35,290 bases of DNA from a virus. The translations under genes and the position numbers were made by a program. The notes under the pieces were generated by a model. That model worked only from the letters and a program-made list of their open reading frames with translations, did no database searches and was not told where the DNA came from. How positions within the stretch are numbered: the first letter of the stretch is position 1; each line of letters begins with the position of its first letter. Of the stretch, positions 625-35,290 are shown piece by piece. The stretch covers positions 1 through 35,290 of IMG/VR virus record IMGVR_UViG_3300027847_001126; one strand, written 5' to 3'.

Positions 625-804
625 ATGGCAAAAGACGAATGGCAACAACCAGATAAAATAGGAGCTCATCCAAAATTATCTCTGTTAGCTAAAAAATTGA
701 AAGAATTAACGGAATTAGAAAATCAATTATTGAAAACCGTTAGAACAGATATAGAAAAATTTAACGAAGTTGAAATAAAAAGGAAAGAAAATAATGGCTC
801 TTAA
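625..804 (+). CDS. Small charged helical protein, 59 aa, function unknown
   Basis: The ORF runs from ATG at 625 to TAA at 802-804. It starts 7 bases after the hub stop and overlaps the next gene by 11 bases, so it fills the only gap between them. The protein starts MAKDEWQQPDKIG and then becomes a Leu/Lys/Glu-rich helix (KLSLLAKKLKELTELENQLL) with heptad-like spacing of Leu, probably a short coiled coil. I do not recognise the family. Small coiled-coil proteins next to hub genes can be chaperones or tail-assembly factors, but nothing here proves that. The tight fit between two structural genes and the AT-rich codon use like its neighbours support it as real. Confidence 0.6.
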   Translation: MAKDEWQQPDKIGAHPKLSLLAKKLKELTELENQLLKTVRTDIEKFNEVEIKRKENNGS

Positions 805-3800
805 GAATAACGCAGCTGATACTCACGCAATTACGGGAACTAATTTAGAACTAGATATTACTGCTCTTGGCCAACTCGACGGGGAAGCGTTCGGACAGTA
901 CGGAGCGGCGGCAGAAGTGTTTGAGGCGGATCTTTGGAAATCTGCAGCATTAGGAGATATTGGTTACTTAAAACCATTTTTTGAAGCAGCAAAAAAGGCT
1001 TTGGAACTTCATAAAGCAAATTCAGCGTTTATTAAAGAAATATATGAAATAAACAAAGCTCTAATGTTTGCTACCATAGATCCTATATTTGCGGCAATTG
1101 ATGCAATCTTAGATGAAATCTTAGCAATATTAAAAGATTTACGAGGTCTAGGTTTTTACATGCTACCAGTTCATGCTGGTTCGGTTGAACCAAATGTAGA
1201 ACGAAATCCAATGACGGGTGCTTTATTTTTTGGGAAAAATATTTATGTTCCTGCAACACGAATCGGACCCACTGAGTCTCCAGTGGGTTCCGGCAAGTAC
1301 CAGCCCGCCAAATTGGATGTAGCCGGTGTCGGCGATAAAATAGCCATAGATCCTATCACAGGCGAACAAAATTATGTTGAAGCTCCGGAGATGAGTGAAG
1401 ATCCACTTCTTTTTAAAAAAGGGGGGGATACGACAGGAGTCGTTGATAATTATTATATAAAAATGAATAAGTACACAGGTTTGATGTCATTAACTCCCGG
1501 CGGAATTATACAAACTATAGATAAATCTTTTGATGATTTAGGCGACGTACCGAAATTTTTTAAACAAGCAATTGCAGACGGAACGACAGAGAGTAAGTTG
1601 GATGAATGGATTCCCAATGTTGATATAAACAAATTTTCAGATTTAATAGATCCAAGTTATTATAAATCAGGCAGACCGATTATGTCTGATTCAGCTAAAG
1701 TTGGGGGCATTATTTTTATAATAGGGCTGCCAGATTTTGACAAATTTTCAAACGTTCTGACAAATTTTAATAAGCTTATAGAAATTAAAGGCTTTGTGGA
1801 ATTACTAAAAGATATTAAAAAAATATGGAAACCCGCTGCAGTTTCTCATAAATTATTAGTATCTAAAGTCGCGAAAATAGTCGTTGCTAAAGGGGCGCCG
1901 GCGAAAGCGGAAGGAAGAGAAGAAGTGAGAGGGGGAGGAGATTCGGCGGGGGATGGGAGAGATACAGATTTCACGGATTACTACGTTATGCAAGAAGAAA
2001 AATCCGGAGCATTTACAGTACAGGATCCAAAGAAAACCAATAGAATATTAAAAAATGACAGAGGAGTTTATGGCCGCGTAAAAGCTGTAGTAGAAACTAA
2101 ATCGTGGATTAATGAAGTCATGGTCCCGAACGCATCTTCATCTATGGATTCTCAAGATGTTGATATGACAGAAAGTAGAATAAAAGCTAAACATATAGGT
2201 CAAAAAGAAAATCGCAATCCTTTGCCATATATGAATCAAACATTAGAGATTGAATATTTAGAAAGTGGCTCTGAAGAGTTTGTATCAGGTGAGTTAATAT
2301 ATGAAGCAATTCCTTCAGTTGCATCCGGAATAAAGGGCGAGGAAGGAAAAGTCATTGAACCGGATGATCAACGGGAAGCTACATACCATCAAGTTAAAGA
2401 AGGAGAATGTGTAGTAGGCATGGTAGTAGATGCTTATGATGATAATGCTTTACCAGAATCACCTAACTGGTCCGGTAAAAGTTTAGAGCAACTGATTCCA
2501 GCTTTGGGTCCAATGCTTAATAAATGTGAAGCGGAAGTAAAGGGGATAAAATCAAGTGTCGCATCTGCTAAAAAAACTTTAGATCCTATTATAAAATGGC
2601 TCGATGATAAAATAGAAGATGTATTAGCTTTCGCGGCAGATATTGAAGTAATATTAGATTTATTCGCTAATGGTTTGCCAGCTGCCGGTATGTATTCTTT
2701 ATATTTAGAACCAAGAGTCGGGGGAATAACTACATTTAGAGAAAGAATGAATGCCGCAGGAGGCGAACTCAAACCACCAGAAGATTTAAAATTTTGTGCC
2801 GGAGTATGTTTTTTAGGAGGAGGACCAGACGATTCTGTACTTTTAAGAGGTATAGATATGTTGGCATTGTTAATGGGTTTAAGAGTACAAACTGCAGCTG
2901 AAACAAAAGTGGCTGCCGATATGAAGTCATTAGCTATTGATCCTTATGCCGGACCCGGGACTTTTGCAGATGATGGAACTCCAAACACCAAAGTGTACTC
3001 ACCGCCCGATGAGGTATTTTTCTCTGGCAAAAATTTTGAATGCATATTAACAACAGAGGATCCTGATGATGCAAGCGCAGTCTTCACACCATTAATTCAA
3101 GATACCGCTGCAGGTTCTACCAGTGGGATGGTTGTAGTTAATTCTAAATACTGGAAAATGTTAGGGGATCCTGTTGGAGATGACGAGGCTGTAACTGTTG
3201 GAGACTCAAGGCCCGCAAGTGAATTGGCTGTTGATAAAAAAGCATGGTTGACGGCAGCGAAGGCAGGGCTAGAGAAGATTTTAGAACTATTGGAAGGGCA
3301 ACCGACCGGAACGAAAAGTATACTAGCCCAAATAATGGAAGTTAATCTTTTCGGTTCTTTTCATCCAATAACTGAACAATTTCAAGGCGATGATATAAAC
3401 ATTTATGAAGAGTTGCTAATGTTGAGAGACAATGATTTACGAGAATTAGAATTATTGGTCTTCCGCATTAAAGAAATGTTACAAATAATTGAAATAAGCT
3501 TGATTCAAACGACTCAAGGCATGGAGGACGATGAAACTGTTGAAAAAGGAAGTATAAGAACTAAAGGTAAGACATTGATGATAATAAAAGGTGAATTTGT
3601 AGATGAGGTGGACGGCACTAACTTTAATGATTTTGGTCACCGGGAAGTCAAACCAAATACTACAATTACTATATTTTCCCCTCTTTTAGAATCTTCTGGA
3701 TCAACAAGATCTGTTGAAAGTTTATCTAATACAACCGTCGCCGTTCTTGACGAAGCATTTCCTGTAGATCTGGATACATCATTGTCTTATAATATACCTT

Positions 3801-4585
3801 TAAACAGTACTACACAAAGATTTGAACCATATGCTTCTGCAGACGAAAATAAAATTACGAATGCGTATTTAATCGACGGTGTGACTTCCAGTCCCGGATC
3901 TCCGGTTGGATCTCAAACCCATTACATACATCCAGGTTATAGATTAAGAGCATATAAAGCTAAAGCTAATACTGTTTCAATAGCTATTCCAACTAGCGCA
4001 GGCAAATATCCACAGCTTCCGGTTTGGAGATCAGGTGAAGCCGGCGTGGAAGGGGATGTACGAACTACCGCGAATTATCCAGCAGGTACTGTGTTAAAAA
4101 TTAACGGGACTGTGCCGGTTTCTGAAACTTATATTTCAGACGATACTGGTCTCGAGATTGTGCGCACAGAGGAAGAACAGGCCGTCGCCGATACATGGAT
4201 GGCCCTAGGTGTTGCTGAAGGTGATGAAATAACAATTGTTTTTGACGGTGAAGACAGCTACACCAGAGCGGTGGATCATACAATTGGGGAAGAATATCTT
4301 AAGTTGACCGAGGCACTGGTAGTAGGATCGTCCGTAAGCATGTTTCAATTTCACGAAGAGTGGTCTTTTGAAATATCAGCTGAGTCCAATGCCGAAGCGG
4401 TTATCAGTGCCGCAATACAAAAAAGTAGAAATAAATTTAAAAAGTTATTAGAAGATGTATCAGCACAAGCGGAAGAAGTTTATGAATATCTCGATACTAT
4501 CAATGCCGAAACGTGGCCGAAGTTGGGCACCGCGGCTGACAACATCCACATCAGCAGGGAACACATGGCAAAGCACCACCCATAA
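794..4585 (+). CDS. Large virion structural protein with duplicated module, 1263 aa
   Basis: This very long gene lies between the gp5-like hub and gp25, so it is probably a tail or baseplate component. I recognise no T4 equivalent. It reads as two related halves. Half 1 has helices (about 50-115), then GLGFYMLP at 118-125 and VGGIIFIIG at 303-311. Half 2 has helices (about 585-628), then AAGMYSLYLEP from 630 with VGGITTF after it, and CAGVCFLGGG at 668-677. A Gly/Glu/Arg-rich linker (about 365-393) separates them. The C-terminal third (about 920-1230) is beta-rich, and the last 50 residues form a helix ending in HMAKHHP. Similar helix/GxYxL/GG modules occur in large structural proteins of marine myophages, to my recollection. 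The start at 794 is the first ATG and overlaps the upstream small gene. Specific function is not known. Confidence 0.75.
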   Translation: MALKNNAADTHAITGTNLELDITALGQLDGEAFGQYGAAAEVFEADLWKSAALGDIGYLKPFFEAAKKALELHKANSAFIKEIYEINKALMFATIDPIFAAIDAILDEILAILKDLRGLGFYMLPVHAGSVEPNVERNPMTGALFFGKNIYVPATRIGPTESPVGSGKYQPAKLDVAGVGDKIAIDPITGEQNYVEAPEMSEDPLLFKKGGDTTGVVDNYYIKMNKYTGLMSLTPGGIIQTIDKSFDDLGDVPKFFKQAIADGTTESKLDEWIPNVDINKFSDLIDPSYYKSGRPIMSDSAKVGGIIFIIGLPDFDKFSNVLTNFNKLIEIKGFVELLKDIKKIWKPAAVSHKLLVSKVAKIVVAKGAPAKAEGREEVRGGGDSAGDGRDTDFTDYYVMQEEKSGAFTVQDPKKTNRILKNDRGVYGRVKAVVETKSWINEVMVPNASSSMDSQDVDMTESRIKAKHIGQKENRNPLPYMNQTLEIEYLESGSEEFVSGELIYEAIPSVASGIKGEEGKVIEPDDQREATYHQVKEGECVVGMVVDAYDDNALPESPNWSGKSLEQLIPALGPMLNKCEAEVKGIKSSVASAKKTLDPIIKWLDDKIEDVLAFAADIEVILDLFANGLPAAGMYSLYLEPRVGGITTFRERMNAAGGELKPPEDLKFCAGVCFLGGGPDDSVLLRGIDMLALLMGLRVQTAAETKVAADMKSLAIDPYAGPGTFADDGTPNTKVYSPPDEVFFSGKNFECILTTEDPDDASAVFTPLIQDTAAGSTSGMVVVNSKYWKMLGDPVGDDEAVTVGDSRPASELAVDKKAWLTAAKAGLEKILELLEGQPTGTKSILAQIMEVNLFGSFHPITEQFQGDDINIYEELLMLRDNDLRELELLVFRIKEMLQIIEISLIQTTQGMEDDETVEKGSIRTKGKTLMIIKGEFVDEVDGTNFNDFGHREVKPNTTITIFSPLLESSGSTRSVESLSNTTVAVLDEAFPVDLDTSLSYNIPLNSTTQRFEPYASADENKITNAYLIDGVTSSPGSPVGSQTHYIHPGYRLRAYKAKANTVSIAIPTSAGKYPQLPVWRSGEAGVEGDVRTTANYPAGTVLKINGTVPVSETYISDDTGLEIVRTEEEQAVADTWMALGVAEGDEITIVFDGEDSYTRAVDHTIGEEYLKLTEALVVGSSVSMFQFHEEWSFEISAESNAEAVISAAIQKSRNKFKKLLEDVSAQAEEVYEYLDTINAETWPKLGTAADNIHISREHMAKHHP

Positions 4586-27930: not shown

Positions 27931-28733
27931 ATCATATAGAACATATTACAAAATATTGTAATGATAATGAAGTATTAGATATTCTTCAAAAGTTGGGGGA
28001 ATATCTTTATGATTTAGATGAAGATAAAATAAGAATGGGTAGCAGAAGAATAATCACTTGGAAAGAAGCTGTTTGTGAAGAATATTTAACGGAATATAAA
28101 AAGTTGGTTAGACCAGGACCACCTTGGCATCAAGGCGTACATGATTTATTATTAGATTTAAGAACAAGAAATAGACATTTGAAAGTTGTTAAATTATGTG
28201 CGGATTTAGGTAAAAGAATAGGAGCACGACAACAAGCTCTAAGTACAATATATCCGCCTGGAGGATATATGAGCTGGCATCACAATGCCGATGTTCCCGG
28301 TAGAAATTTAATTTTTACTTGGTCTAAAACAGGCAAAGGAATTTTTAGATATAAAAGAAATATTCCAGGTGCAGAATCTTTAAATTATGATATTCCAGAT
28401 CAAGTTGGCTGGAATGTAAAATCATTCGATTGGTTCGGGCACGGAGAAATAGATCGTACCGGATATACTTGGCATGCAGCAGGAACTGAAAGTCTCAGAT
28501 CAACTCTTGCATTTGTGATTCATAGTAATCCGATGTCAAATATGCTCTTAGAAGAAGATTTTAATCTTCATCCTTGGAGCAATGGATGTTTTATAAGTGA
28601 AACTGATACACAAAATAAATCTGAATGGTGGAAAGAAACCAAAGAAGAAATTACAACGATGAAATTAAAATCAGAAATTAAAAAAAATATTGCATTAGGA
28701 CCTGCTGGTGTCAAAGCTCTTCAAACCCGCTAA
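27927..28733 (+). CDS. 2-oxoglutarate/Fe(II) oxygenase-like protein, 268 aa
   Basis: The core reads ALSTIYPPGGYMSWHHNADVPG, with W117-H118, then IFTWS, GIFRYKR, GWNVKSFDWF, and TGYTWHAAGTESLRSTLAF, with H183 and R191. This is the order of a phage-typical double-stranded beta-helix oxygenase family (GxMxWHTNxDxPG ... FRYRD ... WH ... R): the first His of the metal site, a distal His and an Arg for 2-oxoglutarate. The usual Asp of HxD is not clear; D122 lies four residues after H118. I chose the ATG at 27927 over 27888 because it makes a 4-base ATGA overlap with the glycosyltransferase stop and gives a normal N-terminus. Substrate unknown; hydroxylation of a phage or host protein or nucleotide is possible. 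Confidence 0.6.
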   Translation: MNHIEHITKYCNDNEVLDILQKLGEYLYDLDEDKIRMGSRRIITWKEAVCEEYLTEYKKLVRPGPPWHQGVHDLLLDLRTRNRHLKVVKLCADLGKRIGARQQALSTIYPPGGYMSWHHNADVPGRNLIFTWSKTGKGIFRYKRNIPGAESLNYDIPDQVGWNVKSFDWFGHGEIDRTGYTWHAAGTESLRSTLAFVIHSNPMSNMLLEEDFNLHPWSNGCFISETDTQNKSEWWKETKEEITTMKLKSEIKKNIALGPAGVKALQTR

Positions 28734-29313
28734 TTCCCCAATTGTTAGATCTCCAGCTTATGTTAGAATATCATCAAAATGGTTTAAAAAAAATGCTGAT
28801 GATATTATTAATAAGTTAGATAAAAAAATAATTCCTGGTACAACAGTAAATAATAATTCAAGTGCTAGAAAATCTGATGTATTTTTATGGGATATATGGA
28901 AAATAGATTTAATAGATTTACAAAAAGTAATAATTTATAAATTAAAAGAAATTTTTATAGAAGAAAATAAGAAATTTCAATTTGATTTAGATTATTCATC
29001 AATTAATGTTCAATATACAAAATATCAAAAAGGAGATTTTTATACGTGGCATACCGATGATGATTTTAATGCAACACACAAAAAACATCAAAATGTAAGG
29101 AAATTGAGTATAACCGCGGCATTAAATGTGGGATCATATGAGGGAGGAGATTTACAAATAATTTTAAATTATCAAAAAGAACCACGAACAATGCGCTTAG
29201 AATTTGGAGATGCATTAGTATTTCCCAGTTTCACACAACACCAAATTACCCCGATTACTGAAGGCATTCGCTATTCGCTAGTATCCTGGGTGTCAGGACC
29301 TCCATGGAGATAA
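28708..29313 (+). CDS. 2-oxoglutarate/Fe(II) oxygenase, P4H/PiuC-like, 201 aa
   Basis: The catalytic part is clear: YQKGDFYTWHTDDDF with H115-x-D117, then RKLSITAALN and SYEGGDLQI, FGDALVFPSFTQHQI with H178, and TEGIRYSLVSWVSGPPWR with R188. H115, D117 and H178 bind Fe(II), and R188 holds 2-oxoglutarate in this family. The ending GxRYSLVxWVxGPxW is typical of PKHD-type hydroxylases such as PiuC. The start appears to be GTG at 28708, giving a 26-base overlap with the upstream gene; no ATG lies nearer. It is shorter at the N-terminus than typical PiuC (about 225). The two neighbouring oxygenases suggest a shared modification task. The substrate is unknown; hydroxylation of a protein residue is the usual expectation. 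Confidence 0.85.
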   Translation: MSKLFKPANSPIVRSPAYVRISSKWFKKNADDIINKLDKKIIPGTTVNNNSSARKSDVFLWDIWKIDLIDLQKVIIYKLKEIFIEENKKFQFDLDYSSINVQYTKYQKGDFYTWHTDDDFNATHKKHQNVRKLSITAALNVGSYEGGDLQIILNYQKEPRTMRLEFGDALVFPSFTQHQITPITEGIRYSLVSWVSGPPWR

Positions 29314-32591: not shown

Positions 32592-32936
32592 ATGATTGAT
32601 TTATTTAACACTTCTGAAATGATGATGCTTGGATTGGTATTATTTTCATCATTTTGGATATTCCTGTTTAATTACAGACAGGACAATAAGGATAAGTATA
32701 ACGGTCATGGATGGTTGATTTTACTTGATTTAGTAATTAATATGGGAATGTCAGCAACTGGTTATTTGTTGATTTCCATTGTATTTACAAACGTTCCACA
32801 ACTTGCGGCCTATGAAAGTTACCGTTATCCCATCGGTTATCTTTTTGGATTGACTTCCAATGTGAGCATACCAATTGTTCTCAAATGGTTTCAACAACAA
32901 ATCACCAAGAAGTTAAATGAAGCAGGAAAGAAGTGA
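32592..32936 (+). CDS. Small membrane protein, 3 TM, holin-like topology
   Basis: The 114-residue protein has hydrophobic segments at about 9-26 (MMMLGLVLFSSFWIFLFN), 42-65 (LILLDLVINMGMSATGYLLISIVF) and 80-98 (IGYLFGLTSNVSIPIVLKW), and ends in a positively charged tail QQQITKKLNEAGKK. Small size, three membrane segments and a basic tail are features of class I holins, but they are not specific, and no holin signature is certain. It could instead be a helper for the cytochrome protein that follows at 32944 after 7 bases. The gene starts 9 bases after the gp16 stop, with GGAA just upstream, so it is expressed with the late genes. Confidence 0.55.
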   Translation: MIDLFNTSEMMMLGLVLFSSFWIFLFNYRQDNKDKYNGHGWLILLDLVINMGMSATGYLLISIVFTNVPQLAAYESYRYPIGYLFGLTSNVSIPIVLKWFQQQITKKLNEAGKK

Positions 32937-32943
32937 GGTAATT

Positions 32944-33414
32944 ATGGCTGAAAAAGAAAAGGTTGTTGCAAATGGCAAAGACCAAAAAATAATACAACAT
33001 GATATTGAAGATTTAGATAAAAAGGTCGAAGAAGTTCAAGTCTTAGAAAATTTAATTAAAGATCAAACAGTTGCTAGTAAATCATTTATCTATGTTATCA
33101 TCGCACTTCTTATATATTTAATCTTTATGGTTATACCAGATATAGATGAAAAAGTTACATTTATGGAAAAGGATCTTAATTCCATTCTAGTTCAATCAGA
33201 ACGATACAAAAAATCAACTAGAGTATTTGCGAAAGATAATCAATGTGCGGGGTGTCATCTAAGTCCCGATTATTACCTCCACAATCTCTTAAAGAAATAT
33301 CCAAGTTTTTCTGATGTTAAAGCATTTATGTCGGTTGGTCATCAACGATATTATACTATGGCAGCACCACTACCTGATGCAGAACTATTAGAAATTTATC
33401 GAGCGTTGCAATGA
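32944..33414 (+). CDS. Membrane-anchored mini cytochrome c (CxxCH), 156 aa
   Basis: Residues 1-45 are charged and helical (IEDLDKKVEEVQVLENLI), residues 47-64 form one membrane segment (SFIYVIIALLIYLIFMVI), and the rest would be periplasmic. C101-A-G-C-H105 (bases 33244-33258) is a canonical heme c attachment motif. M139 in YYTMAAPLPDAELLEIYRAL sits where class I cytochromes c have the axial Met before the C-terminal helix (the usual MPxxxLxDxEL pattern). The cytochrome domain is thus only about 65 residues. I chose ATG at 32944, with GTGAGGT at 32933-32939, over the upstream ATG at 32917 that has no good site and overlaps the previous gene. Heme attachment would need host Ccm proteins. Its stop overlaps the next start (ATGA). 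Partner and function are unknown. Confidence 0.75.
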   Translation: MAEKEKVVANGKDQKIIQHDIEDLDKKVEEVQVLENLIKDQTVASKSFIYVIIALLIYLIFMVIPDIDEKVTFMEKDLNSILVQSERYKKSTRVFAKDNQCAGCHLSPDYYLHNLLKKYPSFSDVKAFMSVGHQRYYTMAAPLPDAELLEIYRALQ

Positions 33415-34526
33415 TTATGTTTGGTAAAATTATTGCATCTTTAGTTTGGGTTTTTTGGATAATGGCATTGTCTCCTGCCGGGGGACAAGATCCAATGAAA
33501 GAAAGACATGGAGTTGGTGTGCCAAAATCAGAATACAATCCAACGTATAGTTCAACATTCAATCGTGTAAAAGAAAGAGGAAATGTCATTTGTGGAACCA
33601 ATGATGAATTTCCCGGCTTCTCACAGGAAATTTGGAATAATGAAGATGGTGATAGGTGGGAAGGTTTTGATGTTGATATATGTCGTGCCGTTGCCGCCGC
33701 AATATTTGGTGATGCAGATGCAATCGAATTTACTATAGTCAATGGAAAAACACGATTTGAATTTTTAATAGATGGTTCTATAGATATTCTTTCAGCCGCC
33801 ACTACCTATACATTCACTAGAAACGTACTCAAAAAACTTGAGTTTGCTCCCACCACATATTATGACGGTCAAGGATTTATTGTAAGAAAAACACTTGGCG
33901 TGTCTTCAGCAAAACAACTAGAGGGCGCAAGGATTTGTTTTAGTTCTACTGGAACAGCTGCAAAGAACATTGCAGACTTTATGGAATTACATGGAATAAA
34001 TTATATCCCTGTCGCAGTACCACCTACTGAAAAAACAAAGAACGTATACAAAAGGGGTGACTGTGATATGTATGGTACTGATAGGTCTGGTCTTGCATCA
34101 AACAGATTAAGTTTTAGTGACCCTGATCGGCACATGATACTTCCAGAGATTATTTCAAAAGAACCATTAGGGCCAGTTGTCAAGTATGGAGATCAGAGAT
34201 GGTCAGATATTGTTCGATGGACAGTATATGTTCTTTTTATTGCAGAAGAAATGGGTATCAACTCAAAGAACATTGACTCGTTCAAGAACAACATAGACCC
34301 AAACATCCAACGATTTATGGGTGAGAAGAATGGTGTAGACCACCCCCATCTTGGTGCTAAACTAGGATTGCCCGCAACTTGGTCTTACGATATAATAAAA
34401 CAAGTTGGAAATTATAAAGAAATATATGAACGTAATGTGGGGCCAGATACCCCAATAGGATTACAACGAGGATTAAATAAACTTTATAGTCATGGAGGAC
34501 TACTATACGCACCACCATTAAAATAG
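33411..34526 (+). CDS. aapJ: AapJ-like general L-amino-acid ABC transporter substrate-binding protein
   Basis: A family 3 periplasmic solute-binding protein of 371 residues, about 30 longer than typical AapJ. A signal peptide lies at about 4-25 (IIASLVWVFWIMALSPAGG). Conserved AapJ segments appear in order: VICGTNDEFPGFSQ (59-71), WEGFDVDICRAVAAAIFGD (83-101), IDILSAATTYTFTRN (124-138), TTYYDGQGFIV, CDMYGTDRSGLAS (218-230), ILPEIISKEPLGPVV (243-257), DIVRW, KQVGNYKEIYERNVGP (330-345) and GGLLYAPP. R137 and D224 are at the positions that bind the carboxylate and amino groups of amino acids in this fold. The usual LSRNTT has become LSAATT. No permease or ATPase is nearby, so it would have to serve the host transporter. 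Base composition is richer in GC than neighbours, suggesting acquisition from a host. Overlap of 4 bases with the cytochrome gene. Confidence 0.9.
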   Translation: MIMFGKIIASLVWVFWIMALSPAGGQDPMKERHGVGVPKSEYNPTYSSTFNRVKERGNVICGTNDEFPGFSQEIWNNEDGDRWEGFDVDICRAVAAAIFGDADAIEFTIVNGKTRFEFLIDGSIDILSAATTYTFTRNVLKKLEFAPTTYYDGQGFIVRKTLGVSSAKQLEGARICFSSTGTAAKNIADFMELHGINYIPVAVPPTEKTKNVYKRGDCDMYGTDRSGLASNRLSFSDPDRHMILPEIISKEPLGPVVKYGDQRWSDIVRWTVYVLFIAEEMGINSKNIDSFKNNIDPNIQRFMGEKNGVDHPHLGAKLGLPATWSYDIIKQVGNYKEIYERNVGPDTPIGLQRGLNKLYSHGGLLYAPPLK

Positions 34527-34529
34527 TAC

Positions 34530-35099
34530 ATGAGATACGAACCGAGATACGATAAAAAGAATTACTTTGATGGTGTTCCAGAGGATAGAGCGGCGGTTGA
34601 TAATATTTTCAGATTAAATGTTACTAATCAAATGCGACTGAATATCAATGCCGACCAAAAGGCCGGACAAATGATTACAGTTTCAGCGATTGTGTTTTCC
34701 GTTACGGCAGCAAACTTTGACAATCCAATATTAATGTATCCGTTAATGTTTTTTGCGATTTGTTGTATTTTAACATTATTGTTTGCGATAATTGCGATAA
34801 TACCCAATGCCAAGTATCCTAAAAATAACTTAGGAAAACTGGATCAAATATCAGACCAATTTAATCCTTTGTATTTTGGACATTACTCTCATCTGACAAA
34901 GAATGAATATAAAGCATATTATGCCCTAACTTTATTGAACGATGACAGAATATATGATGCACTTGCAGAAGAAATTTATGTTTCAGGTAAAGCCCTCGCC
35001 CTTGTAAAGTATAAATGGTTGAGATGGTCTTATGGAATGTTTCTTTTCGGTATGGTAGGAAGTATAATGATTACTATATTTTCACTCATTGTGACATAA
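34530..35099 (+). CDS. PycTM-like (Pycsar effector, DUF5706) membrane protein, 189 aa
   Basis: Layout: N-terminal soluble part with FRLNVTNQMRLNINADQKAG (27-46), membrane segments at about 47-62, 68-92 and 165-188, and between them FNPLYFGHYSHLTKNEY (111-127), DDRIYDALAEEIYVSGKAL (138-156) and KYKWLRWSYGMFLFGMVGS (160-178). The ADxKA at the end of the first helix, the FFGHF-x-x-L-x-x-x-E-Y stretch and the IYxxGxxLxxKYxxLxxxYxxFxxG end follow the pattern I know for the PycTM/DUF5706 family. In bacterial Pycsar defence, PycTM proteins are membrane effectors activated by cyclic nucleotides. No cyclase or other signal gene is present here. It starts 3 bases after the aapJ-like stop, so it belongs to the same late block. 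The family call is by motif reading; function in a phage is open. Confidence 0.6.
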   Translation: MRYEPRYDKKNYFDGVPEDRAAVDNIFRLNVTNQMRLNINADQKAGQMITVSAIVFSVTAANFDNPILMYPLMFFAICCILTLLFAIIAIIPNAKYPKNNLGKLDQISDQFNPLYFGHYSHLTKNEYKAYYALTLLNDDRIYDALAEEIYVSGKALALVKYKWLRWSYGMFLFGMVGSIMITIFSLIVT

Positions 35100-35130: not shown

Positions 35131-35290
35131 ATGGTAGCATATTCACATTTGTCAATGATTGCTTTTGTGATATTAGGATTGTCTATGGTGAGACTAATGA
35201 TAAATTACAGTTCACTATTAGCAAAGAATCATAATGATGATCCAGATGATGATGTTGTATTTTACTGGCCGCACACAGGAATATGTTTTA
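35131..35290 (+). CDS. Membrane protein, N-terminal part (3' truncated by window end)
   Basis: The frame from ATG at 35131 stays open to the end of the window. It reads a hydrophobic segment (HLSMIAFVILGLSMVRLMI), then a polar loop AKNHNDDPDDDVVFYWPHTGICF that seems to enter a second membrane segment. The layout of a first membrane helix, then an acidic loop and YWPH before the next helix, recalls small multi-pass proteins of unknown function in proteobacteria, but I cannot name the family. It follows the PycTM-like gene by 31 bases and continues the run of membrane proteins. A 38-codon frame from 35118 overlaps it and is less likely real. Confidence 0.5.
   Translation, partial: MVAYSHLSMIAFVILGLSMVRLMINYSSLLAKNHNDDPDDDVVFYWPHTGICF

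Follow-up and report, generated by a model that had tools for sequence, protein, structure and literature searches.

A solute-binding protein of T4-like phages as a member of a conserved four-gene envelope cassette

An AapJ-type amino-acid-binding protein (solute-binding protein, SBP) encoded by a T4-like phage is a member of a conserved four-gene envelope cassette with the gene order P1-P2-SBP-P4. The window, that is, the whole stretch of viral DNA analysed (35,290 nucleotides), is a T4-like structural region in which genes for gp25, gp6, gp8, gp13/14/15-type proteins and the small terminase lie upstream of the cassette. The cassette and its nearest features are located as follows:

32592..32936, + strand: P1, membrane protein of 114 aa in which two hydrophobic segments exceed the threshold (three are probable); the best conserved of the cassette proteins
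32944..33414, + strand: P2, with a charged/coiled-coil N-terminus, one membrane span (2.69) and a CxxCH c-type-cytochrome-like domain
33411..34526, + strand: SBP, AapJ-type amino-acid-binding protein of 371 aa, its start overlapping the stop of P2 (ATGA)
33411..33485, + strand: putative signal peptide (SBP residues 1-25), a hydrophobic stretch with conserved K6, W16 and G25
34530..35099, + strand: P4, PycTM-like membrane protein (Pfam PF18967, 72.4 bits against a cut-off of 27.2, E 4.8e-20)
35131..35290, + strand: start only of a 202-aa multi-span membrane protein, an optional neighbour whose gene is cut by the window end

In IMG/VR, 201 of 213 pattern-matched stretches encoded a relative of the family profile, of which up to 80 per search were used. 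Loci were seeded on SBP, P1, P2 and P4 together with five phage contigs from bacterial MAGs (L082-L086). With the final 300 bases of the frame as the criterion of distinctness, and with fragments included, at least 129 distinct SBP loci were obtained; the cassette recurs in many marine viral contigs. P2 lay upstream of the SBP gene in all 110 loci with room; of 77 pairs in which the two genes adjoin, 75 have a 4-base overlap. P1 was near the SBP gene in 109 of 110 loci with room, the exception being L083, where P1 and P2 stand before a two-gene insert, and P4 followed downstream in 86 of 97. The initial annotation had described the SBP as an orphan; since P1/P2 are linked to it at every SBP locus with room, unlike the lone PstS, this description had to be abandoned. 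The cassette is not absolutely obligate, because the near-identical contigs L357 and L358 carry P1-P2 followed by other genes with no adjacent SBP, and L279 carries P4 without the rest of the cassette. Among the 112 distinct loci that have both P1 and the SBP, the gene before P1 was a small terminase in 63 and a HAD-like ORF in 27, and the cassette therefore occupies more than one site. IscU-like ORFs, named by eye, stand beside P1-P2 or near the cassette at L357:2511-2897, L358:3678-4064 and L074:726-1016.

The carriers of the cassette are uncultured T4-like phages, whose marine origin we infer from the IMG sample numbers of the carrier contigs, which we take to denote marine samples, and from the nearest cultured phages. 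When compared to cultured phages, gp6 of the window was closest to that of the Melnitz, HTVC008M and Mosig phages (34-37%), and the TerL of L049 was closest to those of cyanophages and Melnitz (about 58-60%). The T4-like backbone is common to the carriers and to HTVC008M/Mosig, Melnitz and the cyanomyophages, whereas the records of these cultured phages held neither a match to P1, P2 or P4 nor a close SBP. In a set of 50,697 phage records P1, P2 and P4 had no match (E ≤ 0.1), and the SBP had three, all below 60% identity and none in a marine phage by name. The cassette is not mentioned in the accessible parts of the literature searched, supplements aside (PMC7029224, PMC9599517, PMC6359870, PMC5504273, PMC5705922, PMC4053976, PMC8115048, PMC11094077, PMC8418041, PMC12783922, PMC13332234). 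The five contigs L082-L086 had been binned in Chloroflexi, Flavobacteriales, Saprospiraceae, Acidimicrobiaceae and Flavobacteriaceae MAGs and are likely misbinned. Amid the structural genes of the window, a 2OG-Fe(II) oxygenase gene was found at 28708-29313 (PF13640, E 2.2e-14).

The SBP matched PF00497 (SBP_bac_3) with 44.7 bits against a cut-off of 26.4 (E 1.4e-11). Its scores for the NCBIfam amino-acid-binding models stayed below their cut-offs; for the Lys/Arg/Orn-binding subfamily TIGR01096 the score was 128.3 bits, under the cut-off of 256.35. The closest solved relative was PDB 4z9n_A (phmmer E 4.7e-85), a binding protein of Brucella ovis whose structure was determined with glutathione. 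Structural modelling, which the initial annotation had proposed for the binding pocket, gave an AlphaFold model with a mean pLDDT of 80 that superposes on 4z9n_A with a TM score of 0.91 at 44% identity. The Pfam match, the relationship to 4z9n and the model agree with the earlier reading of a full-length AapJ-type binding protein, and on these grounds the SBP is a full-length homologue of the bacterial AapJ-type proteins with a predicted type II SBP fold. A search of a viral fold library with the SBP returned distant SBP-like proteins only, for example one from Cafeteria roenbergensis virus. The signal peptide that had been claimed is likewise reflected in a conserved, signal-peptide-like N-terminus: K6, W16 and G25 were invariant in 15 viral SBP homologues, with an Ala usually two residues ahead of G25. 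Signal-peptide cleavage follows the -3/-1 rule, and since G25 and the preceding Ala fit it, the SBP would putatively be cleaved after residue 25. At the other end of the protein, R353, G354, N356, G362, G363, Y366 and P369 of the C-terminal tail were invariant across a set of 26 viral and bacterial sequences. At one locus, L054:4428-5537, the SBP is divided into two open frames.

The ligand pocket was surveyed in 114 distinct viral proteins of at least 330 aa (shorter ones were left out) and in 122 bacterial proteins. Four codons of the window are central to the comparison:

33795..33797, + strand: Ala129 codon; 121 of the 122 bacterial homologues have Arg here
33819..33821, + strand: Arg137 codon, putative alpha-carboxylate ligand; Arg in 114 of 114 viral and 122 of 122 bacterial proteins
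33960..33962, + strand: Ala184 codon; all 122 bacterial homologues have Glu here
34080..34082, + strand: Asp224 codon, putative alpha-ammonium ligand; Asp in 114 of 114 viral and 121 of 122 bacterial proteins

The equivalents of R137 and D224 in LAO and GltI presumably hold the alpha-carboxylate and alpha-ammonium groups. That these amino-acid-contacting Arg and Asp positions are retained, as had been noted for the window copy, is true of every viral protein in the survey, and R115 and T132 were, like R137, invariant in both sets. The surrounding pocket has changed. Residue 129 is Ala in 113 of 114 viral proteins (L074 keeps Arg) and residue 184 is Ala in 109 of 114, and the bacterial pocket motifs RNTTW and GTTTE are altered in nearly all of the viral SBPs. 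The change from LSRNTT to LSAATT pointed out in the window thus extends to the phage clade, where A-(A/T)-T-T stands in place of the bacterial RNTT. In addition, T222 is replaced by Gly in 114 of 114 viral proteins and D138 by Asn in 112 of 114. The deepest viral member, L086, has A129 yet retains E184, so that R129 was probably lost first. Because R129 and E184, near-universal in bacteria, are lost, the ligand may differ or its binding may be weak. The fixation of R129A and E184A in the clade points to an altered ligand specificity, and since the change is both fixed and under selection, we would attribute it to a new specificity and not to decay.

Of the partners, P1 was aligned with 17 relatives, whose identity to the copy in the window ranged from 64 to 100%; it had no Pfam family over cut-off and no PHROG match. 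Three candidate assignments of P1 were rejected. As a truncated ABC permease it gave a sub-threshold match to BPD_transp_1 (E 0.065; best 0.014, in 6 of 18 members), as a NuoN-like fragment a lone weak profile match to 6u8y_H (E 0.0079) that was not relied on, and as a holin, proposed by its look only, it was unsupported by PHROG or Pfam. In P2, both Cys and the His of the CxxCH motif were invariant in 21 aligned copies, and the motif suggests that heme may be attached. SoxA-TsdA_cyt-c was matched by 20 of 21 P2 members (best E 4.3e-5), the window copy reaching E 0.1 and 13 bits, under the 27-bit cut-off; a fold search with P2 gave no match, the structure model being poor (pLDDT 61). P4 matched the PADLOC models for PycTM (7e-15) and for the CBASS 2TM effector (1e-7) in addition to PF18967. 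It thereby resembles PycTM of Pycsar and the 2TM effectors of CBASS; unlike in those systems, its neighbours in the phage cassette include an SBP, and no nucleotide cyclase that could be a Pycsar partner was found by Pfam beside it or elsewhere among the 25 window proteins.

Of 112 distinct loci, 8 have the gene for the 202-aa membrane protein after the cassette. Its copies are 83-98% identical to the window stub, and the full copy at L009:2981-3589 had no Pfam or PHROG family. Class-3 lipase genes were seen near the cassette at L009:4028-4606, L020:8715-9509, L069:8264-9094 and L081:11961-12830; their N-terminus is lipoprotein-like in some copies, and Pfam was run on the L009 copy only.

All four cassette genes are under purifying selection. 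Over pairs with dS between 0.1 and 1.2, the median dN/dS was 0.076 for P1, 0.137 for P2, 0.152 for SBP (2,451 pairs) and 0.165 for P4. The base composition of the SBP gene is ordinary over its full length, with a GC content of 38.1% when compared to 35.4% for the window, a value reached by 54 of 342 gene-sized windows. The hand-counted G+C of four 60-base lines in the initial annotation (25, 23, 13 and 14) was exact, yet unrepresentative of the gene: 124 of 588 such lines hold at least 25 G+C. The codon check proposed together with the windowed GC did reveal a difference, since synonymous codon use of the SBP gene deviates from that of the other window genes (z 4.6). P2 and P4 are shifted as well (2.4 and 2.7), and the deviation fits movement between phages. 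The GC3 of P1 is high (0.348). No gene of the window deviates more in codon use than an ORF of 1263 aa at 794-4585 (z 8.0, GC3 0.282), which has zero Pfam or PHROG matches.

Phylogeny was based on 148 proteins, 26 of them viral, with midpoint rooting and a bacterial sampling biased by the scan patterns and toward Alphaproteobacteria. All viral SBPs fell on one side of a branch with an SH-aLRT of 100 and a stem of 1.05 changes per site, outside the bacterial AapJ part of the midpoint-rooted tree. No bacterial group in this tree of 148 proteins was sister to the viral clade, and the best bacterial identity to the SBP among the relatives found was about 50%. Taking the deep separate clade and the lack of a bacterial sister into consideration, the gain appears to be old and its donor cannot be named. 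A phylogeny intended to name the host group hence named none, and the more recent gain from a host that had been put forward was rejected in view of the tree and of the GC content over the full length. Movement between phage lineages is indicated by the comparison of individual loci. Relative to the window, L006 and L016 have a gp15 and a small terminase of 47% identity, an identical P1 protein (DNA 96.2%) and an SBP of 89-90%; in L063 the values are 80% for gp15, 81% for the terminase, 87% for P1, 77% for SBP and 57% for P4. Because P1 is identical where gp15 and the terminase share only 47%, we conclude that the cassette moved between lineages.

The absence of a permease and an ATPase noted earlier extends beyond the window. 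BPD_transp_1 was found in none of seven carrier records, which are fragments, and ABC_tran-like matches occurred in two of the seven, all short and none a clear transporter ATPase; the ORF with such a match in G008 we take to be a gp46-like recombination nuclease. In a Skermanella relative (L092), two BPD_transp_1 permeases and an ABC ATPase are encoded downstream of the gene. AapJ-like genes (E ≤ 1e-10) were present in 167 of 289 sampled Alphaproteobacteria, and possible hosts would therefore often have an Aap system. As to the host itself, a 134.5-kb carrier (L389:13320-13528) encodes a permuted tmRNA (RF04321, 88.8 bits) with the ARAGORN tag ANNNDYTPAYAYAIAA. Of 33 small alphaproteobacterial genomes, 26 scored above the RF04321 cut-off, as did 1 of 14 controls; the tag matched none reported for small alphaproteobacterial genomes. 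Since this permuted tmRNA type is common there, it is a weak sign that the host is an alphaproteobacterium.

The SBP likely captures an amino-acid-like ligand. That this capture serves host uptake with the help of the cassette is the reading we tentatively prefer, at a little under even probability. The cassette would be made late, with the surrounding virion genes. The SBP would be exported, close on a free alpha-amino acid or an amino-acid-like ligand with a specificity shifted from that of bacterial AapJ, and dock on the infected host's own AapQM permease. Host uptake could then continue, or shift to another ligand, once host synthesis stops, while P1, P2 and P4 in the inner membrane may support or regulate the envelope state of late infection. 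The conservation of the Aap-type C-terminal tail in the viral SBPs is the main argument for docking on an Aap-type permease, though no proof of it, and the presence of dedicated partners hints that the SBP does more than feed a host permease.

The same tail speaks against a ligand-gated membrane module, in which the SBP would sense a periplasmic compound and control P1, P2 and P4 with no transport, so as to exclude superinfecting phages, time lysis or blunt a cyclic-nucleotide defence. Such a module is possible, although we regard it as somewhat unlikely. The linkage to P1 and P2 at every SBP locus with room, the likeness of P4 to Pycsar/CBASS membrane effectors, the missing permease and clear transporter ATPase in the seven fragmentary carrier records and the changed pocket fixed in the viral clade would all fit it, whereas no cyclase was found by Pfam in the window and P4 is absent from 11 of 97 loci with room. 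Rather doubtful is the proposal that the SBP gates P1, a heme-bearing P2 and a P4 like PycTM or 2TM effectors, that the membrane would thereby answer to a periplasmic ligand, and that the unit moves between phages.

A captured host aapJ that raises uptake beside unrelated neighbours, as a plain auxiliary metabolic gene (AMG) of the PstS type, is quite improbable. Cyanophage PstS comes without its permease. The SBP has in common with it that a solute-binding protein is phage-borne, PstS being carried by cyanophages according to the accessible part of PMC6359870, and the retained clamp and fold as well as the lack of a nearby permease are in keeping with such a gene. A PstS-type AMG is a lone SBP of traceable host origin; here, near-obligate linkage to P1/P2 with overlapping genes was observed, and a deep separate clade for which no donor was found in the tree. 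Unlike PstS, the SBP stands in linkage with membrane genes specific to phages, its pocket is altered by fixed changes, and it has no close host copy among the relatives found. When compared to bacterial AapJ (SBP_bac_3; 4z9n), it shares the fold, the length, R115, R137, T132, D224 and the C-terminal tail; it differs by R129A, E184A, T222G and D138N, by its separate clade, by the lack of Q/M/P genes in the seven carrier records (fragments) and by its linkage to P1/P2/P4. ABC transporters have been listed among the genes of aphotic-zone viruses in the accessible part of PMC5504273.

We consider it very improbable that the SBP is a scavenger or decoy without transport, removing for instance a periplasmic amino acid or peptide signal, or a protein of the virion surface. 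A pocket that is changed yet conserved and the frequent position of the cassette among virion genes, with the small terminase adjoining in 63 of 112 distinct loci, would agree with this; the N-terminus resembles a signal peptide, and the HAD-like ORF preceding the cassette in 27 of 112 loci shows that the tie to virion genes is not fixed. A decaying passenger gene, to which the loss of R129 and E184 and the split frame at L054 could be ascribed, is scarcely credible: the purifying selection on the SBP (median dN/dS 0.152) refutes it at the level of the whole family, and the 114 distinct viral proteins of at least 330 aa speak against it as well.

In summary, what looks like an orphan AMG can turn out to belong to a larger phage machine. 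Should the SBP serve uptake, as in the reading that we tentatively prefer, these phages would alter the flow of amino acids in the cells that they infect; should it act as a sensor, it would represent a new phage route to govern the envelope of the infected cell.
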